Origin: Nakamurella flavida
GTDB taxonomy: Bacteria > Actinomycetota > Actinomycetes > Mycobacteriales > Nakamurellaceae
Length of the DNA stretch: 64,000 bases
Direction of reading: 5' to 3'
Assembly (NCBI RefSeq): GCF_030811475.1
Contig: NZ_JAUSQV010000001.1
Coordinates: 2,379,501-2,443,500, forward strand
This document shows, piece by piece, positions 3,876 through 57,514 of the stretch. A program made the position numbers and the translations under genes. Below the pieces are notes generated by a model. That model worked only from the letters and a program-made list of their open reading frames with translations. It had not been told where the DNA came from and searched no databases. Within the stretch, counting starts at the first letter, position 1, and each line of letters starts with the position of its first letter.

Positions 3876-5272
3876 CAGGAGTCCTGCCCGTCGGGCAGCG
3901 GCCGGTTGCCGAACCGGAAACCGCTGCCGCGCAATGCCGGAGCGCTGACCGACCCGTTCCAGACGTTCATCACCGGCTGCGAGCGGACCTGATCGCCCAC
4001 CCCGTCCACCGACCCCAGGAACCCCAGGACCGACTGGGTGAACCGACCGGTGTCCACCGGTGCGGCGAGCTCGCCGTCCTCGATGAGGAAGCAGGCGTCC
4101 CGGCTGACGCCGGTGATCGTCGAGGCCTGGCGGTCGACCAGCCGGGTGTACCAGAAGCGTTCCACGTAGACGCCGCGCTCCACCCCGGCGATCAGGTCGG
4201 CCTCGGGGGTGGGGCCGGCCGGCATGACGATGTTCGCGGCCACCGGCGAGGGCACCTCCTCGCGGGCGATGTGGGCGTGCCCGGTGGACCGGCCGCCGTT
4301 GACGGTCTCCCCCAGGGCGGCGGCGGTGGCCAGGTCGGTGACCGGTCGGCCCACCACCCCGGTCTGCAGGAACGGCACCCGCTGCTTGGGTGTGCCCTCG
4401 AAGTCGAACGGGATGGGCAGGCCGACGGGGGCGAGTGCGTCGTCCCCGACGGTGATCAGCTCGCTCGCCCGCCGGGCTCCGGGGTCGGTGCAGACGCCGA
4501 CCCCGGCGGCGGCCAGCTCACCGGAGAACCCGACGTCGGGCAGGAAGCCCAGCAGCTCACCCGCCGCCTGCGGGCCGAGCACCACGGTGAACTCGCCGTC
4601 CGGCATCGGCATCCGGCCGCGACCGGCAAGGGCCCGGCGCACGGCGGCGTCGATGGCGTCCCCGGCGCGCAGGGCATCGGAAGACCGGTGCAGGTCGACC
4701 CAGTGCGCGGTGCCCCCGTCGACGCTGACGGTGAGCGAGCCGGAGGCCTCGGTGGCCTCCGCGTGCACGGCGGTCCCGCTGCTGGTGGCCACGGCGATCT
4801 GGGTGAGCGCGCGGCCGATCATGCCGGCGGCGACCCCGCCCACCTCTGCCCCGCCGCGCATCGCCCGGCCGGCCAGCGCGACCCGGGCGCCCGCGTCGAA
4901 CGCGGCGGTGTCCTCGTGCCACAGCGACAGCTCGGGCAGCGGCCCCGGCGTCCCGACGGTGGCATGGCCGGGCGCACCGGCCGCGGCAGCCCGTCCGCGG
5001 GCGAGATCAGCCGCGGCGCGCGCGGTCTCGGCCACCCGGTCCAGGCTGGTCGTCGCGGCCCGGGCGGCGTGCCCGTTCACGATGGCCTTGACGCTGACCG
5101 TCAGCTCGGTGATGTCCTGCGGCTGGTGGATGCGGTCACCGGCGAACCGGGTGTACTCCCCGGCCCGGCCGAGCACGGTGACCTCGACGGCGTCCGCCGG
5201 GCAGTCGCGGACGGCCCGCTGCGCGACCTCCAGGGCCCGCGCCGGGTCGAGCGGGGGTGCGAAGGTGGACAT
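3875..5272 (-). CDS. TldE/PmbA family metalloprotease partner subunit
   Basis: The 465-aa product has the TldD/PmbA fold signature: an N-terminal YTRFAGDRIHQPQDITELTV segment, a central GEFTVVLGPQAAGELLGFL and a C-terminal ERFWYTRLVDRQASTITGVS followed by ACFLIEDGEL. It lacks the HExxxH zinc motif, as expected for the TldE subunit. In characterised systems TldE pairs with zinc-bearing TldD to cleave unfolded or modified peptides such as microcin B17 precursor. The start shares one base with the tldD stop (TGATG), the standard coupling for subunits made one to one. The substrate here is unknown. Confidence 0.9.
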   Translation of the reverse strand: MSTFAPPLDPARALEVAQRAVRDCPADAVEVTVLGRAGEYTRFAGDRIHQPQDITELTVSVKAIVNGHAARAATTSLDRVAETARAAADLARGRAAAAGAPGHATVGTPGPLPELSLWHEDTAAFDAGARVALAGRAMRGGAEVGGVAAGMIGRALTQIAVATSSGTAVHAEATEASGSLTVSVDGGTAHWVDLHRSSDALRAGDAIDAAVRRALAGRGRMPMPDGEFTVVLGPQAAGELLGFLPDVGFSGELAAAGVGVCTDPGARRASELITVGDDALAPVGLPIPFDFEGTPKQRVPFLQTGVVGRPVTDLATAAALGETVNGGRSTGHAHIAREEVPSPVAANIVMPAGPTPEADLIAGVERGVYVERFWYTRLVDRQASTITGVSRDACFLIEDGELAAPVDTGRFTQSVLGFLGSVDGVGDQVRSQPVMNVWNGSVSAPALRGSGFRFGNRPLPDGQDS

Positions 5273-6744
5273 CAGGCGACTCCGATCCGGAGGTTGCGCA
5301 CCAGCATCGGTGCGGCGGCATGGCTGAGGAATCCCCACTGCTTGGGTTCGCCCTTGCCGCAGGGGTAGCCGAAGATGCGGAGCTCCTCGGGGCCGGCGAC
5401 GGCTTCGACCGAACCCCAGAACTCGGGGGTGATGCCGCCGTAGGAGAAGTTCTTGAGCAGCCGGCCGCGCTTGCCGGCCCGCACCTCGTAGGCGACCTCG
5501 GTGCCGAACTGGAAGTTCCAGCGCCGGTTGTCGATCGACCAGCTGCGGTTGTCGTCGATGTAGTACCCGTCGCCCATCCGCTCCAGCAGCTCGTCGAGCG
5601 AGCCCTGTCCCGGTTCCAGGTAGACGTGGGTGGCGAAGCAGACCGGCAGGTAGGCCCAGCCGTCGGACCGGGCGGCACCCGTGAGCTGCTGACCGCTGCG
5701 ACCGGCGGCGTCCCGGTTGGACAGCGTCGCGGCCAGAATCCCCCGGTCGATGAGCCGGGTGCGCCGGGCCGGGGTGCCCTCGTCGTCGAACGCGAAGCTG
5801 CCCCGGGTGCCCGGGATCGTCGGGTCGGAGGTGATGGTGACGGCGTCCGAGCCGTACCGCCGAGACCCGATGTCCTCGACCGACAGGAACGACGTGCCCG
5901 CGTAGTTCGCCTCGTCGCCGAGGATGCGGTCCAGCTCCAGCGCGTGCCCGGAGGACTCGTGGATCTGCAGCGACACCTGCTGCGCGCCGATCACCACGTC
6001 GGCGTTCCCGGCCGGGGCCATCGGCGCGGTGAGCAGAGCCACCGCCTCCTCCCCCACCCGGATCGCCTGGTTCGCCAGGTCCAGCGTGGCGATGTACTCC
6101 CAGCCCGCTGCGGCGGTGTTGCCGTGGAACGAGTTCGGGTACGAGCGTCGCTGCACGTCGCCGTGCCCGACGGCGTTGGCCAGCAGGCCCGCGCCGGTCT
6201 CCAGGAAGTGCTGGTGCTGGCGGGAGCCTTCGCTGTTGCCCACATGCCGGTGCTGGCGCTTGGCGTTGACACCGGCCTGGGCGGCCACCACCTCGGCGGG
6301 CCGGGTGGCGTTGGCCAGCACCTCGTCGAGGAGGGCCTGGCGCACCGAGGCGTCGACGGCGAACGGATCGATCGCCACCTCCGTCTCGTACCGGCCGCTG
6401 GCCGCCGCCATCGGCGCCAGGTGGACCGGGGCGCTGGTCCCGATGCTGGCCCGGGCGGTGGCCAGGGCCTGCCGGGCGGCGGTCTCCGCGTCCCGGGCGT
6501 CCTGGACCGGACGGGCCGCGAAACCCCAGGTGCCGTCGACCAGGACGCGCACCCCGATGCCCATGGTGTGCTCGCGACGCTCGTCGGGGTCGGCGCCGAG
6601 CTGGCTGTACAGCCGCAGCTCCTCGCCCTCGATCAGCCGGACGTCCGCGAACTCGGCGGCGCCGTCGGCGACGGACAGCGCGGAGTCGATGAGGACGGTG
6701 GCCGCGGCGTCGTCGGCGAGCGAGCCCCAGTCGTGCGCCGTCAC
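5272..6744 (-). CDS. tldD: TldD family zinc metallopeptidase
   Basis: The 490-aa product contains the family's HExxxH zinc motif, HESSGHALELDR, at residues 262-267. It is preceded by IGAQQVSLQI and followed by a glycine-rich region and the late CFATHVYLEPG and GYPCGKGEPKQWG segments. The GTG at 6744 is chosen because it overlaps the stop of the upstream oxidoreductase by four bases (GTGA); longer frames add unlikely arginine-rich sequence. TldD and TldE form a heterodimeric protease in which the peptide is threaded to the zinc site. Here the pair sits in an operon with permeases and DUF4438 proteins rather than with a recognisable RiPP precursor. Confidence 0.93.
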   Translation of the reverse strand: MTAHDWGSLADDAAATVLIDSALSVADGAAEFADVRLIEGEELRLYSQLGADPDERREHTMGIGVRVLVDGTWGFAARPVQDARDAETAARQALATARASIGTSAPVHLAPMAAASGRYETEVAIDPFAVDASVRQALLDEVLANATRPAEVVAAQAGVNAKRQHRHVGNSEGSRQHQHFLETGAGLLANAVGHGDVQRRSYPNSFHGNTAAAGWEYIATLDLANQAIRVGEEAVALLTAPMAPAGNADVVIGAQQVSLQIHESSGHALELDRILGDEANYAGTSFLSVEDIGSRRYGSDAVTITSDPTIPGTRGSFAFDDEGTPARRTRLIDRGILAATLSNRDAAGRSGQQLTGAARSDGWAYLPVCFATHVYLEPGQGSLDELLERMGDGYYIDDNRSWSIDNRRWNFQFGTEVAYEVRAGKRGRLLKNFSYGGITPEFWGSVEAVAGPEELRIFGYPCGKGEPKQWGFLSHAAAPMLVRNLRIGVA

Positions 6745-7946
6745 GATGCGGCCCCGGCGGTGACGACACCGTTCGACGCACCGTTCGAGGAACCGTCGAC
6801 CGACGCCTCGGCCGGTGCGGCCACGGCGGTCTGCAGCGGGAAGTCCACCCACGCGCGGGTGCGGTGGGAGGCCTCGAAGGCGTTGATCGTCTCCTGGACG
6901 AGCGCGCCCTGCGCGAAGTCACCCTGGTTCTGCGCCCCGCCGGACAGGATCTCGGTGGCGAAGTCGGCGCAGAGCGCCGAGTAGAAGAGGAAGTCCCAGT
7001 CCTCGCGGGAGTCGCCGCCCTCGGGGAAGAACTCCTGCGGGATCTCCCGCTCCACGAATTCCACCTGGTCCTTGGTGGCCGTCCTGATCGTCTGGCAGAT
7101 GCCCTCCTCGGCGACCAGCCGCACGATGATGGCGCCCTCGGAACCGAAGATCCGCGCCTCGATGCCGGGGAAGTTCCCGACCGTCACGTAGGAGGACTGG
7201 ATCGAGCCGATGACGTTGTTGGCGAACTCGCAGACCCACATGTCACCGTCGTCGATGTTCAGCCGCTGCATGGCGCCGGTCGCGGCCACCACCCGCTCGG
7301 GCACGAAGTTGCGCATGGTGCCGACCACGGAGGTCAGCTCGGCGCCGACCCACTCGTGCATGATGTCGATGATCGGCGCGCCGTAACCCTCGATCGACGA
7401 GGTGGCCAGCACGGCCGGGTCGGCCTTCGGGTTCACCTGGCGCATCGGGGTCTGCGGGTCGATCCACTGGCTGTTCTGCTCGTACCCGTTGAAGATGTAC
7501 GGCGTCCCGACGAAGCCGCTCTCCATCAGGTGGCGGGCGTACTGCACCGCGGGGGCGTAGCGGAAGGTGAAGCCCAGCTTGGTCTTCAGGCCCTTGCCCC
7601 TGGCCAGATCGGCCAGCCGCTGGGTCTGCGTGTAGTCGTGGTGCACCGGCTTCTCGCAGAGCACGTGCTTGCCGGCCAGCAGGGCGGCCTCGGAGATCTC
7701 GAAGTGCGCGGTGTTGGCGGTGGCCACGTCGACCACGTCGATGGTGTCGTCGGCGAGCACGTCCCGGTAGTCGGTGTACAGCCGGCTCACCCCGAAACGC
7801 TCACCGGCCTGGGCCAGCGCCGCCTCGTCGGTGTCGACCAGGGCGACGACCTCGACGCGGGGATCGCGCTGCCAGCCCGGGATGTGGGCCCGCTGGGCCC
7901 AGCGTCCGGCTCCGACGACGGCGACCCGCAACGTGTCCTGGCTCAT
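6741..7946 (-). CDS. Gfo/Idh/MocA family NAD(P)-dependent oxidoreductase
   Basis: The 401-aa product starts at an ATG preceded by GAGAGGAAC. The N-terminal Rossmann motif is VAVVGAGRWAQRAHIPGW (about residues 8-25). It is followed by DVVDVATANTAHFEI and the hallmark LCEKPVHHDYTQT, whose EKP lysine is usually catalytic. The C-terminal half carries the family's substrate-binding sheet (GYGAPIIDIMHEWVGAEL). The last 30 residues are a low-complexity Ala/Ser/Gly tail. Family members oxidise sugars, cyclitols or related alcohols. Its overlap with tldD suggests that it acts on the substrate imported by the adjacent permeases, but the substrate cannot be read. Confidence 0.92.
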   Translation of the reverse strand: MSQDTLRVAVVGAGRWAQRAHIPGWQRDPRVEVVALVDTDEAALAQAGERFGVSRLYTDYRDVLADDTIDVVDVATANTAHFEISEAALLAGKHVLCEKPVHHDYTQTQRLADLARGKGLKTKLGFTFRYAPAVQYARHLMESGFVGTPYIFNGYEQNSQWIDPQTPMRQVNPKADPAVLATSSIEGYGAPIIDIMHEWVGAELTSVVGTMRNFVPERVVAATGAMQRLNIDDGDMWVCEFANNVIGSIQSSYVTVGNFPGIEARIFGSEGAIIVRLVAEEGICQTIRTATKDQVEFVEREIPQEFFPEGGDSREDWDFLFYSALCADFATEILSGGAQNQGDFAQGALVQETINAFEASHRTRAWVDFPLQTAVAAPAEASVDGSSNGASNGVVTAGAAS

Positions 7947-10360: not shown

Positions 10361-11692
10361 TCAGGCCTCGCAGGCGACGCCGTCCTTGTCCCGGTCACTC
10401 TCGCTGTTGAGGTCGTACAACGCCTGCGACACGGTGAAGTTCAGGACACCGGGTACCGGTCTGTCGACAGCACCGGGTCGCCCCACCCCATGCGGGTGGT
10501 CGCGGTGCATCGCGTCGCAATTGGGGTAGTCGATGAGCGCGGGCGTCGTCGGGGGCGTCACCACCGGGGGCGGCGTGACCACCGGCGGCGGGGGCGTGAC
10601 CACCGGCGGCGGGGGCGTGACCACCGGCGGCGGGGCGATGGGCGTGCCGAAGGTGAGGCACCCGAGTTCGGGGTTGGGCGCCCGGTTGCCGATGTTGATG
10701 CCGTAGGCGCAGACCCGATGCTGACCCGACCCGGATCCGATGCCGGCCGCGGACACGGTGGCCTCGTAACCGGCTGCGGGGGCACCGAAGATCGCGGCCA
10801 CATCGGGCCGCACGCCCCCGGTGGACGTGGAACCGCCGAAGCGTCCGTCCACGTAGAAGTGGACGGCGAGCGGCGCCGCCAGATCGTCCGGGTCGGTCGC
10901 CCATCCGGCGACCCGCACGTTCGCCTCGTCGATCTGGACCGCCGCATCGAGGCTGCCGATCGCGGTCCGGTCGAGGCCGTAGGTGGCGCAACCCAGCTGG
11001 GAGTTCGGCGCCACCGTGCCGATGTTGATGCCGTAGGCGCAGACGGTGTGCCTCCCGGGGCCCTGGGCAGGCAGCGCCGTCAGGTACCCGGCAGCGGGGG
11101 CACCGAAGAGGGCGGCGATGTCCGCCCGCGGGCCGTCGGTGGCGGTCACGCCCGCGAATCGTCCGTCCACGTAGAAGTGGACGGCGAGCGGCGCGGCCGG
11201 ATCGTCCGGGTCGGTCGCCCATCCGGCGACGGTGGCACTCCCGTCCGGCTGCCCGACCGCCACGTCCAGGCTGCCGACCGGGGCACGGTCGACACCGTAT
11301 GTCAGGCAACCCACCTGGGCATTGGGGGCGGCAGGACCGGTGTTGATGCCGTACGCGCAGACGGTGTGCGGCCCCGGCCCCTGGGGCGGCAGCGTGACCC
11401 GGTAGCCCGCCTGCGTCGCCCCGACGACGGCGGCGACATCCGGACGCGCCTCGCTGCCGGTCCGGTACGGGTATCCCCGCACGCCGTCGACGTAGATGTG
11501 GACGCCGATGGACTCGCGCAGGGTGTCGGGGTCCGCGGTCCACCCCCGGACGGTCAGGCTGCCGTCGGCACCGAGCGAGACGAAATCCAGCGACCCGACG
11601 GGCGGGCCGGAGGGTGCGGCAGCCCATGCGGGCGACGCGGTGAGGGACAACAGGACGATCGGTAGGGCAGCGAGCATGGACCTGATGCGCAT
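10361..11692 (-). CDS. Secreted protein with three ~100-aa repeats and C-terminal Excalibur calcium-binding domain
   Basis: This 443-aa protein has a Sec signal peptide (residues 1-25, cut near PAWA-AAPSG). Three repeats follow at about 31-134, 138-237 and 241-345. Each opens with VGSLD/IGSLD, contains GWATDPDD..PLAVHFYVDGR and ends HTVCAYGINIG..APN..LGC.TYG, with two conserved cysteines likely forming a disulphide. A proline-rich linker of repeated PPPPVVT units leads to an Excalibur domain (YPNCDAMH ... DRDKDGVACE), a calcium-binding motif of cell-surface proteins. It is probably extracellular or wall-associated. It has no membrane anchor or sortase motif. Its function is unknown. Confidence 0.85.
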   Translation of the reverse strand: MRIRSMLAALPIVLLSLTASPAWAAAPSGPPVGSLDFVSLGADGSLTVRGWTADPDTLRESIGVHIYVDGVRGYPYRTGSEARPDVAAVVGATQAGYRVTLPPQGPGPHTVCAYGINTGPAAPNAQVGCLTYGVDRAPVGSLDVAVGQPDGSATVAGWATDPDDPAAPLAVHFYVDGRFAGVTATDGPRADIAALFGAPAAGYLTALPAQGPGRHTVCAYGINIGTVAPNSQLGCATYGLDRTAIGSLDAAVQIDEANVRVAGWATDPDDLAAPLAVHFYVDGRFGGSTSTGGVRPDVAAIFGAPAAGYEATVSAAGIGSGSGQHRVCAYGINIGNRAPNPELGCLTFGTPIAPPPVVTPPPPVVTPPPPVVTPPPVVTPPTTPALIDYPNCDAMHRDHPHGVGRPGAVDRPVPGVLNFTVSQALYDLNSESDRDKDGVACEA

Positions 11693-12350: not shown

Positions 12351-13031
12351 TCAAGACCGGACGCCGATCCCAGCGCCGGCGGTGGGCGGGACCGGCGCCG
12401 CCACCCGGCCGGCCTCGAGATGCAGGCGGTACCCGGCCCGTTCGACCGAGGCCGGGTCGTGGGTGATGTGGACGACGACGGTGCCGCGATCGGCCTCGGC
12501 GGCCAGGGCGTCCTCGATCCACGCACGGGCCGGGGCGTCGACACCGGCGGTCGGCTCGTCGAGCAGGAGCACCGGGGCCCGCTGGGCGAGCCCCTGGGCC
12601 ACCAGGACCCGCTGCCGCTGCCCCCCGGACAGTGCCCCGATCTGGCGTCCGGCCAGGTCGGTCACCCCCAGGCGCTCCATCGCATCAGCGACGATCGCGT
12701 GGTCCGCCGTGCACAGTCGCCCCCACCGGCCGCGGCGGTGCCAGCGACCCATGGCGACCGCGGCCCGGACGCTGAGCGGCAGGGGGCGGTCGGCCGACCA
12801 GGACTGCGGGACCAGGGCGACACCGCCGGGCGGTCGCACCACCTCCCCCTGGGCCGCCGGGTGCACGCCGGCGACCACCGCGACCAGCGCCGACTTGCCG
12901 GACCCGTTGCCTCCGGTCACCGCGGTCACCGCACCGGCGCGGAACACCGCGTCCACCCGGTCGACGGCGAGAACCCGTCCGTGTAAGGCACTCACACCGA
13001 TGACCCGCACGCTGTCCGTCACACCCGGCAT
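12351..13031 (-). CDS. aztA: Zinc/manganese ABC transporter ATP-binding protein (AztA-like)
   Basis: This 226-aa ABC ATPase has Walker A GGNGSGKSA (about residues 40-48), signature LSGGQRQR, Walker B VLLLDEPTAGVD and the H-loop HITHD. It resembles ATPases of the metal-importing ZnuC/AztA group. It diverges from the permease gene across only 23 bp, which contain a perfect 15-bp palindrome proposed as a Zur box. With AztB and AztC it would drive high-affinity zinc uptake. The first residues (MPGVTDSVRVIGV) leave room for a slightly later start. Confidence 0.88.
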   Translation of the reverse strand: MPGVTDSVRVIGVSALHGRVLAVDRVDAVFRAGAVTAVTGGNGSGKSALVAVVAGVHPAAQGEVVRPPGGVALVPQSWSADRPLPLSVRAAVAMGRWHRRGRWGRLCTADHAIVADAMERLGVTDLAGRQIGALSGGQRQRVLVAQGLAQRAPVLLLDEPTAGVDAPARAWIEDALAAEADRGTVVVHITHDPASVERAGYRLHLEAGRVAAPVPPTAGAGIGVRS

Positions 13032-13037
13032 CGTAAC

Positions 13038-13052
13038 GAACGATTATCGTTC
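13038..13052. promoter_or_regulatory. Candidate Zur box between aztA and aztB
   Basis: The 15-bp sequence GAACGATTATCGTTC is a perfect inverted repeat around a central T/A. It fills most of the 23-bp gap between the divergent start codons. Fur-family proteins bind palindromes of this shape. A Zur homologue is encoded at 57074. A repressor bound here would cover both promoters and probably both initiation sites, so both transcripts may be leaderless. Confidence 0.72.
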
Positions 13053-13054
13053 TC

Positions 13055-13948
13055 ATGTACGGTTCCCGGGTGTCCTGGCTCCTCGATCCGTTCTCCGCGT
13101 CGTTCATGCTGCACGCCCTCGTCGGCGGGCTGCTCGTCGCCGGCATCTGCGGCGTCGCCGGCACCTGGGTGGTGATCCGCGGGTCGGCCTTCCTGGGTGA
13201 GGCCCTGGCCCACGGCATGGTGCCCGGGGTCGCCCTGGCCGCCCTGCTCGGCTTCCCCAGCATCCTGGGGGCGGCGGTCAGTGCCGGCGCGATGGCCACC
13301 GGGGTCGGCCTGCTCACCCGCAACCGGCGGCTGTCCGACGACACCGCGATCGCCCTGCTGTTCGTCGGGATGCTCGCCCTCGGCGTCCTCATCGTCTCGC
13401 GGTCCCGTTCGTTCGCCACCGATCTGACCGCCGTCCTGTTCGGCGACGTCCTGGCCATCCGGGGCGGTGACCTGGTCCAACTGGCCGTGGCCGTCCTGCT
13501 CACGGTCGCGCTGGCCGCGGGCTTCCACCGGTCGTTCGTGGCGCTGGCCTTCGACCCGGCCAAGGCCGCGACGCTGGGGCTCCGGCCCCACGTCGGCCGC
13601 ATAGCGGTGACCGTCCTGGTGACCCTGGCCGTGGTCAGTTCGTACCAGGCGGTCGGCAGCCTGCTCGTCGTCGGCCTGCTGGTGGGACCGGCCGCGGCAG
13701 CCCGGCCGTGGACCTCCGGCATCGCCGCCTCGATGGCCGTGGCCGCGGGCATCGGCGCCGTCGCCGTCGTCGCCGGACTGCTGCTCTCCTGGCACGCCGG
13801 CACCGCCGCCGGGGCATCGATCGCGGTGCTGGCCGTCGCGTCCTACCCGCTGTCCGTCCTGCTCCGCGCGGCCCGGCGGACCCGCCCCGTCACGGCGGCA
13901 CCGGCCGTCCCACCGGCCGCCGACAGCACACCGCTGCTCCGCCGCTGA
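13055..13948 (+). CDS. aztB: Zinc ABC transporter permease (AztB-like)
   Basis: The 297-aa product is a hydrophobic metal ABC-3 permease of the ZnuB/AztB type. It has about eight membrane helices, and the family motif GSAFLGEALAHGMVPGVALA lies near residues 44-63. The ATG at 13055 has no ribosome binding site; the GTG at 13070 (VSWLLDPF) is an alternative start. It is first in a plus-strand run with the aztD-like gene, aztC and aztD, and faces aztA across a Zur-like palindrome. Confidence 0.9.
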   Translation: MYGSRVSWLLDPFSASFMLHALVGGLLVAGICGVAGTWVVIRGSAFLGEALAHGMVPGVALAALLGFPSILGAAVSAGAMATGVGLLTRNRRLSDDTAIALLFVGMLALGVLIVSRSRSFATDLTAVLFGDVLAIRGGDLVQLAVAVLLTVALAAGFHRSFVALAFDPAKAATLGLRPHVGRIAVTVLVTLAVVSSYQAVGSLLVVGLLVGPAAAARPWTSGIAASMAVAAGIGAVAVVAGLLLSWHAGTAAGASIAVLAVASYPLSVLLRAARRTRPVTAAPAVPPAADSTPLLRR

Positions 13949-13991: not shown

Positions 13992-15281
13992 GTGCCCGTC
14001 CGTCTGTCCCGTCCACGGTGGGCCGCCGGTGTTCTCGCCGCCGGCCTGACCCTGACCGCCTGCGCCCCCGGCGAGCCCATCCGCGCCACCCCGGCCGTAA
14101 CGTCCGCCACCGAACCAGGCCCGGGCACTCCGGGGGCGGACGAGTCCACCGGCGACACCTACGGCTGGGTGGAGGGGGCCGTCGAGATGACCGAGCCGCC
14201 ACTCCGTCTCGCCGTCGTCGCCCCCGACGGCACCACCACCGGCATCGACCTGCTCACCGGCGACCCGGTCGACCTGCCCGACCTGCCCGCTCCCACCACC
14301 GTGAGCACCGACGGCCGCTACCTGTTCGCCACCTCGGCGTCCGGGCTCACCGTGCTGGACGGCGGCGCCTGGACCGTTCCGCACGGCGACCACTCCCACT
14401 ACTACCTCGCCGAACCCCGGCTGGTCGGCGAGATCGACGGCGCCGGTGCGACCGCCACCACCTCACGGGTCGCGGTGACCGACCCAGCGGGCGGCACGGC
14501 CACGGTGCTCGACGGGACCGCGCTCGGCACCGGCACCGTCGTCCCCGTCGCCGAGGTCACCGATGTCCCGGCCGACGGGCTCCTGGTCCCCCTGGGCGAC
14601 CACCTCGTGCAGACCGTCGCCGGGGGGCCCGACACCGCTCCGGACACCGTCCGGGTCCTGGACGGCGCCGGCGCTCCCGTGGCCGGGGCCGAGATCGCCT
14701 GCCCCGCAGCGGCGGGCACCATCACCAGCCGCGTGGGCGTGGTCGTCGGCTGCGCGGACGGCGCGGTCCTCGCGGTCGCGGACACCGAGGGCGGCGGGCC
14801 CGTCTCCCTGGAGCACATCGCGTACCCCACTGCGGTCTCCGCGGCGGAGCGGGCCACCGTGTTCCGGGCCCGCAAGGATCGTCCGGTGGTCGCGGCGGTC
14901 GCCGGTGACCGTGGCGCCTGGATCCTGGACACCCGCGAACGGACCTGGTCGCTCCTGGAGACCGACGAGCCCCTCGTCGCGGTGACCGCGGTGGACGACC
15001 GGGACCATGCCGTCGTCGCCGTCGACCGGAGCGGCCGCATCCTGGTGCTCGACGCCGAGACCGGCGCCACCACCGCGACGACCGACCCGCTGCTGGCCGC
15101 CAGCCTGGCGGACCCGGCGCTGGCCACCGCCGTCACCCTCGAGGTGGACGCCGCGCGGGCCTACGTCAACGACCCGGCCGGCCGCCGGCTGCTGGAGATC
15201 GACCACGGGGACGGGGGCCGCATCTCCCGTGAGTTCCCGACCCCGGCGGTGCCGATGTTCTTCGCGGAGCTGGGTCGATGA
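13992..15281 (+). CDS. AztD-like zinc chaperone lipoprotein (first, divergent copy)
   Basis: This 429-aa protein has a lipoprotein signal peptide with lipobox LTAC (Cys24), followed by a low-complexity linker and a beta-propeller-like chain of short strands (VVAPDGTTTGIDLLTGDPVD, DRSGRILVLDAETG). An HGDHSHYY motif (His131, His134, His136) is a plausible zinc site. It parallels the second AztD-like protein at 16233 but lacks that protein's PGHVVRH segment. AztD proteins hand zinc to the binding protein AztC in Paracoccus. Its stop overlaps the aztC start by four bases (ATGA), supporting a direct partnership. Confidence 0.78.
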   Translation: MPVRLSRPRWAAGVLAAGLTLTACAPGEPIRATPAVTSATEPGPGTPGADESTGDTYGWVEGAVEMTEPPLRLAVVAPDGTTTGIDLLTGDPVDLPDLPAPTTVSTDGRYLFATSASGLTVLDGGAWTVPHGDHSHYYLAEPRLVGEIDGAGATATTSRVAVTDPAGGTATVLDGTALGTGTVVPVAEVTDVPADGLLVPLGDHLVQTVAGGPDTAPDTVRVLDGAGAPVAGAEIACPAAAGTITSRVGVVVGCADGAVLAVADTEGGGPVSLEHIAYPTAVSAAERATVFRARKDRPVVAAVAGDRGAWILDTRERTWSLLETDEPLVAVTAVDDRDHAVVAVDRSGRILVLDAETGATTATTDPLLAASLADPALATAVTLEVDAARAYVNDPAGRRLLEIDHGDGGRISREFPTPAVPMFFAELGR

Positions 15282-16207
15282 GGGCCCGCCACCGGCTCCT
15301 GCCGGCGCTCCTGACCGCCACCCTGCTGCTCGGCGGGTGTTCGGGAGACGCATCCGCCCCGGACCGCCCGCTGATCGCGGTGAGCACCAACATCCTGGGC
15401 GACGTGGTGCGGGAGGTCATCGGCGCCCAGGCCGACGTGCTCGTGCTCATGCCCCCCGGATCGGACCCGCACTCCTTCGAGATCTCCGCCCAGGAAGCGG
15501 CCCGGCTGCGGGGGGCCGATCTGCTGGTGTCCAACGGGCTCGGCCTGGAGGAGGGCGTCCAGCATCACCTGGACGCGGCCGCGGCCGACGGCGTGCCCCG
15601 GTTCGTGGCCGGCGACCACGTCGAGACGGTGGCCTACACCGACGACGAGATGTCCGGCCCCGACCCGCATCTGTGGACCGATCCCCGGCGGATGCTGCAG
15701 GTCCTCGACGCCCTGGAACCGGCCCTGGCCGCCCTCGACGCCGTGGACGGACCCGCCCTGCACGCTTCCGCCGAAACCTACCGGCAAGAGCTGCGCGACC
15801 TGGACGCGCACCTCGCGGAGCTGTTCGCCACCATCCCGGCGAGCCGGCGCGCCCTGGTCACCAACCACAACGTCTTCGGGTACCTGGCCCAACGCTACGA
15901 CTTCACCGTGGTGGGAACGGTTCTCCCCGGGGGGACCACCCTGGCCGCACCGAGTGCCAGCGATTTCGATGACCTGATCCAGGACATGGCGACCGCCAGT
16001 GTCGACGTCGTCTTCGCGGACGTGGCCCAACCGGAGCGCCTCATGCGGGTCCTCGCCGACGAGGCCGACGTCCAGGTCGAGGTGGTACCCCTGTTCACCG
16101 AATCCCTCAGTGCAGCAACGGGTACTGGAGAAGACAGCGGGGCGGCCACCTACCTCGAGATGATGCGCAGCAACGCGGACCGCATCACCGCTGCGCTTGC
16201 TTCCTGA
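15278..16207 (+). CDS. aztC: Zinc ABC transporter substrate-binding lipoprotein (AztC/ZnuA type)
   Basis: This 309-aa cluster A-I binding protein has lipobox LLGGC (Cys21). Expected metal ligands are His65 (PGSDPHSFE), His131 (GPDPHLWTD), His197 (VTNHNVFGY) and an Asp in VVFADVAQPE. The loop between the first two histidines is acidic and short, without the His-rich stretch of ZnuA, as in AztC. It captures zinc outside the membrane for AztB/AztA. It is translationally coupled to the upstream AztD-like gene, and its stop codon lies within a second Zur-like palindrome. Confidence 0.92.
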   Translation: MRARHRLLPALLTATLLLGGCSGDASAPDRPLIAVSTNILGDVVREVIGAQADVLVLMPPGSDPHSFEISAQEAARLRGADLLVSNGLGLEEGVQHHLDAAAADGVPRFVAGDHVETVAYTDDEMSGPDPHLWTDPRRMLQVLDALEPALAALDAVDGPALHASAETYRQELRDLDAHLAELFATIPASRRALVTNHNVFGYLAQRYDFTVVGTVLPGGTTLAAPSASDFDDLIQDMATASVDVVFADVAQPERLMRVLADEADVQVEVVPLFTESLSAATGTGEDSGAATYLEMMRSNADRITAALAS

Positions 16208-16220
16208 GAATGCTTCTCGA
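16205..16220 (+). promoter_or_regulatory. Candidate Zur box and leaderless promoter before second aztD
   Basis: TGAGAATGCTTCTCGA is a palindrome with one end mismatch, of the form TGAGAA-N3-TTCTCr. It overlaps the aztC stop codon. It is followed at once by TAAGCT (16221-16226), a plausible -10 element that lies six bases before the ATG at 16233. This spacing is typical of leaderless actinobacterial promoters. The half-site matches the palindrome upstream of rpmG (56467). Confidence 0.6.
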
Positions 16221-16232
16221 TAAGCTGGCGTC

Positions 16233-17465
16233 ATGAAGCCCCCTTCCCTCCTCCGCCCGTTCGTCCTCTTGGCCGGCGCCGGTCTCCTGGTCACCGCGTG
16301 CGGCTCGGCCGCCCCGACCTCGTCCTCCTCCCCGTCCGACACGACCGGTTCTGCCCCGAACACCGGTGCGGTCGGGAACACCGCGACCACAGCACGTGTC
16401 GCGCTCACCTACGACGGTGGCGTGCTGGTGCTGGACGGTACGACGCTGGAGGTGGCCGCCGATCTGCCGCTGGCCGGGTTCAACCGGCTGAACCCGGCCG
16501 GCGACGGCCGTCATGTGCTGGTGTCCACCGCCGACGGCTTCCAGGTGCTCGACGCCGGCACCGACATCGGTTCCGGCACCGGTAATCCGGCCCTGACCGA
16601 CCTGGTGTTCGCGGCCGACACCCCCGGCCACGTCGTCCGGCACGCCGGCCGCACGGTGCTCTTCGCCGACGGCACCGGCGAGATCACCGCGTTCGACACC
16701 GATGCCCTCAGCGCCGACACGAAGCCCGAGACCGAGGTCATCGCCTCGGAGGCCGCCCACCACGGGGTGGCGATCGAACTCGCCGACGGCTCGGTGCTGT
16801 CCACCCTGGGCACGGCCGACGGGCGGACCGGGGTGCGGGTCCTGGGCCCGGACGGTACGGAGACCGCGCGCAGCGAGGAGTGCCCCGCCGTCCACGGCGA
16901 GGGCACGGCCGCCGACGAGGTCGTCGTCTTCGGCTGCAAGGACGGTGTCCTGATGTACGAGGCGGGTGCGTTCACCAAGCTGCAGGCGCCGGACGCCTAC
17001 GGCCGCATGGGCAACGCCTACGTCAGCGAGACCTCCCCGCTGGTCGTCGGGGACTACAACAGCGACCCGGACAGCGAGGGCTACCTGCTCTCCGAGCTCG
17101 CCCTCATCGACACCACCGCCGGCACGCTGAAGGTCGTCGACCTGCCCGCGGGTGTCGAGTACACCTGGCGGGACGTGGCCCGGGGCCCGGCCGACGAGGC
17201 CGTGCTGCTCAGCGCGGACGGCACCCTGAACACCCTGGATCCCACGACCGGCGAGATCCGGCAGTCCTGGGACGTCATCGACCCGTGGACGTCCCCGGAG
17301 GAGTGGCAGGACGCCCACCCGGCGCTGACCGTGCACGGGAACACCGCCTACGTGACCGAACCCGCGAAGCAGCGCATCCTGGCCGTCGACCTGACCTCCG
17401 GCGAGGTGGTCGCCGATGCCACCCTGCCGGCCACCCCCAACGAGATCGCCGTCGCGGCAGCCTGA
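16233..17465 (+). CDS. aztD: AztD zinc chaperone lipoprotein (second copy)
   Basis: The 410-aa product has lipobox LVTAC (Cys23), a Ser/Thr-rich linker and a beta-propeller body with repeated strand motifs (GGVLVLDGTTLEVAADLPLA, VLVSTADGFQVLDAG, DLTSGEVVADATLP). The segment PGHVVRHAGRTVLFADGTGE and a Cys pair (EECPAVHG..., FGCKDG) recall AztD proteins. It would bind zinc outside the membrane and pass it to AztC. It has its own Zur-like site and possible leaderless promoter, so it may be made at a different ratio from the rest of the cluster. A terminator follows. Confidence 0.85.
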   Translation: MKPPSLLRPFVLLAGAGLLVTACGSAAPTSSSSPSDTTGSAPNTGAVGNTATTARVALTYDGGVLVLDGTTLEVAADLPLAGFNRLNPAGDGRHVLVSTADGFQVLDAGTDIGSGTGNPALTDLVFAADTPGHVVRHAGRTVLFADGTGEITAFDTDALSADTKPETEVIASEAAHHGVAIELADGSVLSTLGTADGRTGVRVLGPDGTETARSEECPAVHGEGTAADEVVVFGCKDGVLMYEAGAFTKLQAPDAYGRMGNAYVSETSPLVVGDYNSDPDSEGYLLSELALIDTTAGTLKVVDLPAGVEYTWRDVARGPADEAVLLSADGTLNTLDPTTGEIRQSWDVIDPWTSPEEWQDAHPALTVHGNTAYVTEPAKQRILAVDLTSGEVVADATLPATPNEIAVAAA

Positions 17466-19665: not shown

Positions 19666-19803
19666 CCGCCCCGTGACCACGGGGCGGTGGCATCCGACCT
19701 CGTGGGTGGGTCGTCGCCGCTGCCCTGTCCCCGCATGCCCGGGGACGGGTGTGTCGGCGTCCTCTCCGCGGGTCGATCTCGAAACTCGCGAAGGAGAGTT
19801 CCG

Positions 19804-22119
19804 ATGACCGTTCCCCCCATCCCCCGCACCTGTGGTGCCACCGTGCACGGCTACCCCCGGCACGGCCCCGACCGGGAGCTCAAGCGGGCCGTCGAGGCGT
19901 ACTGGGCCGGCCGGGCCGACGCCGACGGCCTGCTCGCCGTCGCGGCGCAGCTGCGCCGCGACCGCCTGGTGGAGCTGCGTGACGCCGGGCTGTCCGAGAT
20001 CCCCGGGGAGTTCTCGCTGTACGACCACGTCGCCGACACCGCCTGGCTGCTCGGGGCCGTCCCGGACCGGCACCGCGCCGCCGTCCCCGGCCAGGAGTCC
20101 GCGGCCGACCGGTTGGACCGGTACTTCGCGATGACCCGGGGAACGGACGCCGTCGCGCCCCTGGAGATGACGAAGTGGTTCGACACGAACTACCACCACC
20201 TGGTCCCGGAACTGGGGCCCGACACCGGGTTCGCCCTGGACCCGTCCGGCCCGCTGGAGATGCTGGCCGAGGCCCGGGACCTGGGGGTGACCACCCGCCC
20301 GGTGGTCCTCGGGCCGCTGACCTTCCTGCTGCTGAGCAAGCCCACGGCCGACAGCCCGGCGGACTTCGCACCGCTCGACCTGCTGGACACCGTTCTCCCG
20401 CTGTACGAGGAGCTGCTCGCACGACTGCAGGCGGCCGGGGCGTCGTGGGTGCAGATCGACGAACCGATCCTGGTGCTCGACCAGCCGCCCGCCGTGCTGG
20501 ACCTGGCCGCACGGGTGCTGGACCGTCTCACCGCCGTCCCCGCCCGGCCGAAGATCCTCCTGGCCGGCTACTTCGGATCGTTCGGGGACGCCCTGCCGGT
20601 GCTCGTCGGTTCCCCGGTCGACGGGCTCGCCCTGGATCTGGTGGCCGGAACCGCTGACCTGGCGGCCCTGCGCGAGCTGGGCGGCCTGCCCGGGAGACGC
20701 CTCGTCCTGGGGGTGGTCGACGGCCGGAACGTCTGGCGCACCGATCTGGACGCGGCGCTGGCCGTGGCGGCCGGGGCGGGTGATCTCGCCGGGTCGCTGG
20801 ACGTGGCCGCCTCCTGCTCGCTGCTGCACGTGCCGCTGGACCTGACCACGGAGCAGCACCTGGACCCCGCGGTGGTGCCGTGGCTCGCCTTCGGCAGGCA
20901 GAAGCTCGCCGAGCTGGTCGTGCTCGCCCGCGGGATCACCGACGGCCCGTCGGCGGTCGAGGCGGAACTGGCCGCCGCCCGAGTGGCGCTGGCCGACCGG
21001 CGGACCTCGGGTGTGGTGGTGGACCCCGCCGTGCGCGCCCGGGCGGCCGCCGTCGTCGACGCCGATCTCGTCCGGCCGCCCTACCCCGAGCGCCGGGCGG
21101 CCCATCGGCGGCGACTGCCCCTCCCGCTGTTCCCGACCACGACGATCGGCTCGTTCCCGCAGACCGGGGACCTGCGCCGGGCCCGGGCCGCGCTGCGCGC
21201 CGGGCAGCTGGACCCGGCCGGGTACCGGTCGGCGATGCAGGCCGAGATCGCCGCCGTGCTGGACCTGCAGACCGAGCTCGGCCTCGACGTGCTGGTGCAC
21301 GGCGAGCCGGAGCGCAACGACATGGTGCAGTACTTCGCCGAGCAGCTCGACGGGTTCGTGGTCACCCACCACGGGTGGGTGCAGTCGTACGGCACCCGCT
21401 GCGTGCGGCCGCCGATCCTCGTCGGTGATGTCTCCCGACCCGTGCCGATGACGGTGCCCTGGACGACGTGGGCCCAGGCCCGCACCGACCGGCCGGTCAA
21501 GGGCATGCTCACCGGCCCGGTCACCATGCTGGCGTGGTCGTTCGTCCGGGACGACCTCCCGATCGCCGACACCGCCCGGCAGGTCGCCCTCGCGCTGCGG
21601 GACGAGGTCGTCGATCTGGACGCCGCCGGCACGGCGATCATCCAGGTCGACGAACCGGCCCTGCGGGAGACGCTGCCGCTGCGCCGGGCCGACCGCGCCG
21701 CCTACCTCGACTGGGCCACCCGGGCGTTCCGCCTGGCCACCTCGGGGGTCGCGACGGACACCGCGGTGCACACCCACATGTGCTATGCCGAGTTCGGCGA
21801 CATCCTCAGCGCCGTCTTCGATCTCGATGCCGACGTGATCAGCGTGGAGGCCGCCCGGTCGGGGATGGGGATCGGTGCGGAACTGGCCGACGCGGGTTAC
21901 CCCCACGAGGTCGGCCCGGGCGTGTGGGACATCCATTCGCCGCGGGTCCCGTCGGTCGACGAGATGGAGGCCCACCTGCGGGCCACCTCGACGGTGCTGC
22001 CCGCGGAACGGCTGTGGGTCAACCCGGACTGCGGACTCAAGACCCGGGGTCGAGCCGAGACCGTCGCCGCCTTGGGGAATCTCGTCGCCGCCGCGCTCCG
22101 GGTGCGCGTCGGTCGGTGA
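19804..22119 (+). CDS. metE: Cobalamin-independent methionine synthase
   Basis: The 771-aa product has the two-domain MetE architecture. It transfers a methyl group from methyltetrahydropteroyl-triglutamate to homocysteine, giving methionine. The C-terminal half carries FPTTTIGSFPQTGDLRRAR, then the zinc ligands in HTHMCYAEFGDI (His and Cys) and WVNPDCGLKTR (Cys). The start is set by an AAGGAGA ribosome binding site seven bases upstream of ATG. Its length is normal for the family. It is alone behind a cobalamin riboswitch, so it is probably repressed by B12. Confidence 0.97.
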   Translation: MTVPPIPRTCGATVHGYPRHGPDRELKRAVEAYWAGRADADGLLAVAAQLRRDRLVELRDAGLSEIPGEFSLYDHVADTAWLLGAVPDRHRAAVPGQESAADRLDRYFAMTRGTDAVAPLEMTKWFDTNYHHLVPELGPDTGFALDPSGPLEMLAEARDLGVTTRPVVLGPLTFLLLSKPTADSPADFAPLDLLDTVLPLYEELLARLQAAGASWVQIDEPILVLDQPPAVLDLAARVLDRLTAVPARPKILLAGYFGSFGDALPVLVGSPVDGLALDLVAGTADLAALRELGGLPGRRLVLGVVDGRNVWRTDLDAALAVAAGAGDLAGSLDVAASCSLLHVPLDLTTEQHLDPAVVPWLAFGRQKLAELVVLARGITDGPSAVEAELAAARVALADRRTSGVVVDPAVRARAAAVVDADLVRPPYPERRAAHRRRLPLPLFPTTTIGSFPQTGDLRRARAALRAGQLDPAGYRSAMQAEIAAVLDLQTELGLDVLVHGEPERNDMVQYFAEQLDGFVVTHHGWVQSYGTRCVRPPILVGDVSRPVPMTVPWTTWAQARTDRPVKGMLTGPVTMLAWSFVRDDLPIADTARQVALALRDEVVDLDAAGTAIIQVDEPALRETLPLRRADRAAYLDWATRAFRLATSGVATDTAVHTHMCYAEFGDILSAVFDLDADVISVEAARSGMGIGAELADAGYPHEVGPGVWDIHSPRVPSVDEMEAHLRATSTVLPAERLWVNPDCGLKTRGRAETVAALGNLVAAALRVRVGR

Positions 22120-57073: not shown

Positions 57074-57514
57074 ATGGCTGCGACGCAGCGACGGAACACC
57101 ACCCAGCGGGCGGCGATCCTGCAGGTCCTGGCCGAGACCGGCGAGTTCGTCTCGGCGCAGGACCTGCACGGTGCACTGCGCGCGACCGGGTCCTCGATCG
57201 GCCTGGCCACCGTCTACCGCGCGCTGCAGGAGATGGCCGGCTCCGGCGACCTCGACACGGTGCGCAAGGAGTCCGGCGAGGTCCTCTACCGGCAGTGCGA
57301 GCAGCCCAGCCACCACCACCACCTGGTGTGCCGGGTCTGCGGTCGCACGCAGGAGATCAAGGCCCCCGGAGTGGAGCAGTGGGCCCGGGCCGTGGCCGAG
57401 GAGTTCGGGTACGTCGACCTGGACCACCAGATGGAGCTCTTCGGGGTCTGTGCCGCCTGCGCCCACGAGCGGACCCGGTCCGGGTCCCCGGCCGAGCCGG
57501 CCGGCGTTGGCTGA
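57074..57514 (+). CDS. zur: Zinc uptake regulator Zur (Fur family)
   Basis: The 146-aa product has a winged helix (ILQVLAETGEFVSAQDLHGA, IGLATVYRALQEMA) and Fur-family metal sites. The structural zinc is bound by Cys86-X2-Cys89 and Cys126-X2-Cys129. Sensing residues lie in QCEQPSHHHHLVCRVCG. Grouping with C- ribosomal protein genes supports Zur over Fur. It is expected to repress the azt importer and rpmG-rpsR when zinc is adequate. An AAGGAAG site precedes ATG. Confidence 0.92.
   Translation: MAATQRRNTTQRAAILQVLAETGEFVSAQDLHGALRATGSSIGLATVYRALQEMAGSGDLDTVRKESGEVLYRQCEQPSHHHHLVCRVCGRTQEIKAPGVEQWARAVAEEFGYVDLDHQMELFGVCAACAHERTRSGSPAEPAGVG

Follow-up and report, generated by a model that had tools for sequence, protein, structure and literature searches.

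Two AztD paralogues flanking aztC in Nakamurella flavida appear to carry one AztD zinc site each

Within a stretch of 64,000 nucleotides from Nakamurella flavida (contig NZ_JAUSQV010000001.1, positions 2,379,501 to 2,443,500; hereafter the window), taken from a source genome of 4.32 Mb in one contig, the gene for the zinc-binding protein AztC is flanked by two different genes for AztD-like zinc chaperones, here called D1 and D2. According to the available parts of the AztD structure paper (PMC6689063), AztD of Paracoccus has two high-affinity zinc sites: site 1, in the pore, is formed by His124, His167 and His218, and site 2, on an extension to which a blade-2 hairpin belongs, by His99, His102 and Asp104 together with the C-terminal His408. 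In the same parts of that paper, zinc transfer to AztC was unaffected by the removal of site 1 and abolished by the removal of site 2. The operon and the corresponding sites in D1 and D2 are as follows.

12351-13031, minus strand: aztA, ABC transporter ATPase (NCBIfam AztA, 217 bits, slightly below the cut-off of 220)
13055-13948, plus strand: aztB, permease (NCBIfam AztB, 326 bits, above the cut-off of 280)
13992-15281, plus strand: D1, AztD paralogue with the site-2 hairpin only, predicted lipoprotein of 429 amino acids, Cys codon at 14061
14382-14405, plus strand: HGDHSHYY hairpin of D1, corresponding to AztD zinc site 2 in HxxHxH form (sequence and model)
15278-16207, plus strand: aztC, zinc solute-binding lipoprotein (NCBIfam AztC, 327.8 bits, slightly below the cut-off of 350)
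16233-17465, plus strand: D2, AztD with site 1 only, predicted lipoprotein of 410 amino acids, Cys codon at 16308
16551-16595, plus strand: shortened loop of D2 at the place of the absent site-2 hairpin (alignment and profile alignment)
16629-16895, plus strand: span of the three site-1 His of D2, in PGH (16629), HHG (16761) and HGE (16893) (alignment)

The four components of an AztABCD system are thus found together, with AztB and AztD passing their family cut-offs and AztA and AztC just missing theirs, and the stop codon of D1 overlaps the start codon of aztC. A preliminary description of the locus had noted that D1 has HGDHSHYY and lacks PGHVVRH, while D2 has PGHVVRH and lacks HGDH, which both sequence and alignment confirmed; the HGDH motif maps to AztD site 2, and the PGH motif, together with HH and HG, to site 1. 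Its view that both copies are lipoproteins with a propeller-like body agrees with a lipobox-like Cys in each (LTAC in D1, VTAC in D2) and with the structure prediction it had proposed, which returned high-confidence beta-propellers for D1 and D2 (predicted local distance difference test scores of 90.4 and 91.8). The site-2 hairpin is present in the D1 model only, as strands 103-108 and 111-116 (mature-protein numbering).

D2 is a true AztD. It scores 454 bits against the NCBIfam AztD profile, above the cut-off of 400, and matches PDB 6cmk at E 1.4e-23, in agreement with the fold comparison. Since the HxxHx[DH] hairpin is absent from both sequence and model, D2 represents a site-1-only variant of AztD. 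All three site-1 His, which it retains, are found in 173 of 173 aligned AztD.

The assignment of D1 is less immediate, as the AztD profile (NF038015) reaches only 47.4 bits over residues 78-409 and misses the cut-off of 400, and only 85 of 371 aligned residues are identical between D1 and D2. However, the possibility that D1 belongs to a different lipoprotein family, which the preliminary description had named as grounds for abandoning its proposal, is ruled out by profile comparison, fold and a conserved Cys pair, making D1 an AztD paralogue. Aligned with hhalign, D1 and the AztD family profiles match end to end (E 4e-45). AztD chains account for all of the top 9 Foldseek matches of the D1 model (E 2e-22 to 8e-18), the next match following at E 4e-10, and comparison with AztD crystal structures gave Z 36.7 with a root-mean-square deviation of 2.8 over 356 residues, the best non-AztD fold reaching Z 24.4. 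The Cys pair is conserved in all 310 aligned family members, including 128 of 128 D1.

None of the three site-1 His is retained in the D1 of the window. At site 2, D1 proteins keep both His and have His in place of Asp, and the C-terminal His known from Paracoccus AztD is missing. Within the HxDHxH motif, all three His and the Asp are invariant in 127 of 127 D1, although 80 of these had been picked by this very motif and contain site 2 by construction; the other 47 had been picked by full-length similarity. Judged from the aligned proteins, this conservation is far from chance. A Glu four residues from the C-terminus occurs in 117 of the 127 and is a candidate for an acidic fourth ligand.

Compared with the AztDs of P. 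denitrificans and Citrobacter koseri (PDB 6ck1, 6cmk, 6n01), the likeness extends to the 8-bladed propeller, the Cys pair and the neighbouring AztC. Those proteins have the site-1 His seen in D2 and the hairpin equivalent to that of D1, but combine both sites in one protein, whereas here two proteins carry one site each; furthermore, their hairpin reads HxxHxD, in contrast to HxxHxH in D1. The latter form is known from the streptococcal Pht proteins (PhtD, PhtA; PDB 2cs7), which share with D1 the HGDHxHY-type HxxHxH and an operon with a zinc-receiving binding protein, AdcAII. In the accessible portions of PMC3842936, the Pht triad coordinates zinc through three His plus an acidic residue and hands it on to AdcAII. 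Outside the motif, D1 shows no sequence relation to Pht (PDB E 0.012), and membership in that family was rejected, with 17.7 bits against PF04270 (cut-off 27) and 13.6 against TIGR01363 (cut-off 33). Single-copy actinobacterial AztDs (e.g., L092 and L148) belong to the same family and carry both sites, as HGDHxH together with PGH, HHG and HGE; they lie mostly distant from aztABC, in genomes without a high-scoring AztC. A scan of 10 open reading frames from 5 loci gave no common theme among the neighbours of two-site AztDs.

How general this arrangement is was assessed by the survey of copy number in relatives that had likewise been suggested, covering 17 genomes from the family and 394 from the class (the source genome being in both), with 100 stretches around matches classified by profiles. 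In the class search, scoring was limited to the best four candidates from each genome, and D1 was possibly missed in some. The counts leave out ten pieces that were too short, from L125 (where D1 is frame-broken), L164, L178, L182 and L186, as well as fragments from G144 and G160:C11; the full-length members comprised 47 D1, 91 AztD and 7 unassigned proteins. The site-2 motif was present in all 47 D1, of which 43 had no site-1 His, 3 had one and 1 had all three. Conversely, all 91 AztD had three site-1 His, and the site-2 motif was found in 42 and absent in 49. At the 45 loci with a full-length D1 and AztD, every AztD lacked the site-2 motif and had 3/3 site-1 His, and every D1 had the site-2 motif, accompanied by 0-1 site-1 His in 44 and by 3 in one. 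The 4 further site-2-less AztDs are one adjoining the frame-broken D1 (L125), L112, L123 and the second AztD of L140; for L112 and L123, a two-site copy is located elsewhere in the genome (L113 and L124, respectively). When the 91 AztD were tabulated against the presence of a second site-2 carrier in the genome, site 2 was lost with a carrier in 49 and kept without one in 40, the remaining cells holding 2 kept with a carrier (both in genome G180) and 0 lost without.

In a second set, named genome contigs were scanned with the D1 alignment and the HxDHxHYY motif; at least 589 relatives matched, of which 80 were kept. Here, 79 of 79 full-length AztDs lacked site 2 and had site 1, and none of the 80 D1 had any site-1 His. 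All 80 loci are actinobacterial and include Microbacterium, Curtobacterium, Frigoribacterium, Clavibacter, Nocardioides, Rhodococcus and Dietzia; besides Clavibacter and Curtobacterium, the operon also occurs in Rathayibacter. The split of the two sites appears, from these genomes, to be common to many soil and plant-associated actinobacteria. Among the matches listed, the closest named record is Nakamurella leprariae, with a D1 that is 70% identical, and this species is apparently in both sets (L174, L184). The statement that known AztABCD systems have one AztD thus holds for the characterised Paracoccus operon, while in the sampled actinomycetes two copies per AztC operon are the rule.

The absence of site 2 is not an alignment effect, since H-x-x-H-x-[HDE] occurs within the domain of only 10 of 129 site-2-less AztDs, of which 9 have it around residue 205, in a loop, and 1 at the N-terminus. 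In the four inspected cases of the former, the motif precedes the third site-1 His. In L137, L135, L234 and L235, an HxDHx[HD] motif lies adjacent to this His, in the loop before CPGIHGE. The loss takes several molecular forms, namely deletion of the hairpin, partial deletion (L111) and ligand substitution (L112). Mean column identity is 35% for D1 and 44% for AztD, so both proteins diverged strongly around invariant ligands.

In the FastTree phylogeny, D1 forms a single deep clade (128/128, support 1.0) that joins actinobacterial AztD at a node with a support of 0.87; a recent tandem duplication is therefore unsupported. On the quick AztD tree, two changes of site-2 state are needed, and the starred branches force two as well. 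Many independent losses of site 2 were considered and are not supported, the placement of all site-2-less rows in one clade giving p 0.141 in the approximately unbiased test. At locus L111 of genome G282, a two-site D1-like protein (4204-5445) lies beside an AztD with a decayed site-2 hairpin (6450-7706), and this pair looks like an intermediate stage. L113, L124 and L165 form a small separate clade of two-site AztD-like lipoproteins outside the D1 clade, and the unlinked AztDs without site 2 in G118 and G035 are possibly a second case of the same division. Because the two-site proteins of L111 and L113/L124 share genomes with site-2-less AztDs, the loss of site 2 from AztD may have preceded that of site 1 from D1.

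D1 is closely tied to AztC. Of the 43 class genomes with an AztC of at least 320 bits, 42 have D1 (frame-broken in G205), and all but 2 of the 44 class genomes with D1 have an AztC of this score, the two being G398 and G387, the latter of which has a partial AztC. AztC exceeded its cut-off in 40 of 48 D1 genomes compared to 0 of 45 genomes with AztD-family genes outside D1 operons, the best score in the latter being 226 bits. The order D1-aztC-aztD was found at 44 of 47 survey D1 loci and 79 of the 80 named ones. Streptomyces clavuligerus has the identical gene order, with D1 annotated as a "hypothetical protein" in the one annotated record examined. In Paracoccus, AztC requires a flexible loop with three His to accept zinc from AztD. 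In contrast, among 127 D1-operon AztCs, the 22 residues before the DPHxW motif lack His in 100 proteins and include a single His in 26 and two in one. At this position, a Shinella AztC carries an extended segment rich in His. The idea that D1 operons are marked by a loss of these His was rejected: the binding proteins adjoining four two-site AztDs (L108, L116, L122 and L148) likewise have 0-1, and the paucity of loop His is thus an actinobacterial rather than a D1 trait.

Taken together, D1 has the site-2 hairpin without the pore His, D2 has the reverse, and relatives lacking a second site-2 copy retain both. The preliminary description had suggested that one ancestral metal site was split between the copies. 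Its complementary loss stands, but a single site cut in two is ruled out, because AztD has two separate sites, both of which are present in single-copy relatives, and each copy here retains one of them. We consider it probable that the two zinc sites of an ancestral AztD were divided between D1 and D2 as ancient paralogues, D1 probably donating zinc to AztC and D2 storing it at site 1. The partition can be read from the proteins themselves, and from it we infer zinc binding and transfer. Under zinc starvation, a Zur-type repressor would release the operon; D1, anchored near AztC, would take up zinc on its hairpin and load AztC as site 2 of Paracoccus AztD does. D2 would serve as a reservoir or buffer at the cell surface, binding zinc tightly in its pore and unable to load AztC, comparable to the published dS2 mutant. 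Furthermore, separation could free each site from the negative cooperativity that has been suggested between the two sites of AztD.

Several observations weigh against this division of labor. D1 lacks the C-terminal His of Paracoccus AztD, and its fourth ligand is only a candidate. As 126 of 127 D1-operon AztCs have 0-1 His before DPHxW, compared to the three loop His needed in Paracoccus, the published mode of transfer cannot apply exactly. Genome G266, the only class genome with a good AztC and no D1, has aztABC without D1 or D2, while in G398, which lacks a good AztC, a D1-D2 pair (L265) stands without aztABC in its vicinity. The D1 of G282 retains both sites, both unlinked copies of G180 are two-site proteins, and 9 of the 129 site-2-less AztDs contain HxDHx[HD] in another loop. 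Finally, phylogenetic independence is weak: a single origin of site-2 loss is not rejected by the test described above, and the near-perfect association between site-2 loss and a second carrier stems from 2-3 independent pairs rather than from many independent events.

The strongest competitor, which we regard as unlikely, is a heterotypic relay at the cell surface, in which D2 would store zinc and the D1 hairpin would dock in the D2 pore, take the site-1 zinc and deliver it to AztC, the two lipoproteins acting in series. The tight co-occurrence of D1 and D2, paired even without nearby aztABC in G398 and both missing from the aztABC locus of G266, fits this. If true, the hybrid contact between two AztD molecules in crystals from C. 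koseri would represent the ancestral state of a D2 to D1 exchange. However, the available parts of PMC6689063 report that transfer from site 1 to site 2 between AztD molecules was not seen in Paracoccus, and its authors judge the crystal contact most likely an artefact. It is less likely still that D1 left zinc delivery for another ligand or partner and that D2 alone feeds AztC from site 1. The divergence of D1 from the AztD profile could be explained in this way, and since the acceptor-loop His are absent here, the published rules for the donor may not hold. Yet the D1 gene separates aztB from aztC, its end overlapping the aztC start, D1 accompanies AztC in 42 of 43 genomes, and its most strictly conserved feature is HxxHxH, the form that binds and donates zinc in Pht, as far as the available text of PMC3842936 goes. 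Inherited linkage after one old duplication, with redundant sites lost by drift and no selected functional division, would suit the small number of independent events and the unrejected single loss but seems very improbable given the invariance of the D1 and site-1 ligands despite strong divergence and the several molecular forms of site-2 loss.

The two-paralogue AztABCD variant is therefore real and widespread, and it is new within the literature searched: no description of two AztD copies was found in the AztD literature covered, which did not extend to the two original articles in J Biol Chem, on AztC and on AztD. The authors of the structure paper consider the role of the highly conserved site 1 unclear and leave it open in its available parts (PMC6689063). 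Here the two sites are separate genes of one operon that occurs in many genera, with cultured species among them, which makes it possible to delete, purify and assay each on its own. Moreover, D1 adds a probable zinc-uptake lipoprotein, and the HxxHxH motif of the Pht zinc donors is now found on a second type of protein, an AztD-like propeller.

Two features of the window bear on the regulation of the operon.

13038-13055, no strand assigned: Zur-like box between the divergent aztA and aztB, reaching the aztB start (read directly; 2 mismatches to TGANAANNNTTNTCA)
57074-57514, plus strand: Fur-family regulator gene, candidate Zur

The core of the box (13038-13052) is a perfect 7-base palindrome around one central base. 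Upstream of aztB at 122 D1 loci, TGANAANNNTTNTCA was found with 0 mismatches in 63, 1 in 29, 2 in 22, 3 in 6 and 4 in 2. Thus, 114 of 122 loci have the box with at most 2 mismatches, compared to 23 of 2440 shuffles (23 with 2, none with 0 or 1), the pattern having been selected after the sites were seen. It agrees with the mycobacterial Zur consensus as quoted in the available part of PMC7174638, and binding of Zur to the box is what we infer from this likeness. NCBIfam gives the regulator at 57074-57514 no Zur name.

Away from the azt operon, the source genome encodes a second ZnuA-type binding protein (L002, contig C1, 2158586-2159362, minus strand). On the aztA side of the operon, a gene at 10361-11692 (minus strand) encodes a protein that looks secreted, contains three repeats similar to each other and a C-terminus rich in Asp, and has no NCBIfam match. 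Soon downstream of the operon, at 19687-22119 (plus strand), lies the gene for the cobalamin-independent methionine synthase MetE, a zinc enzyme.

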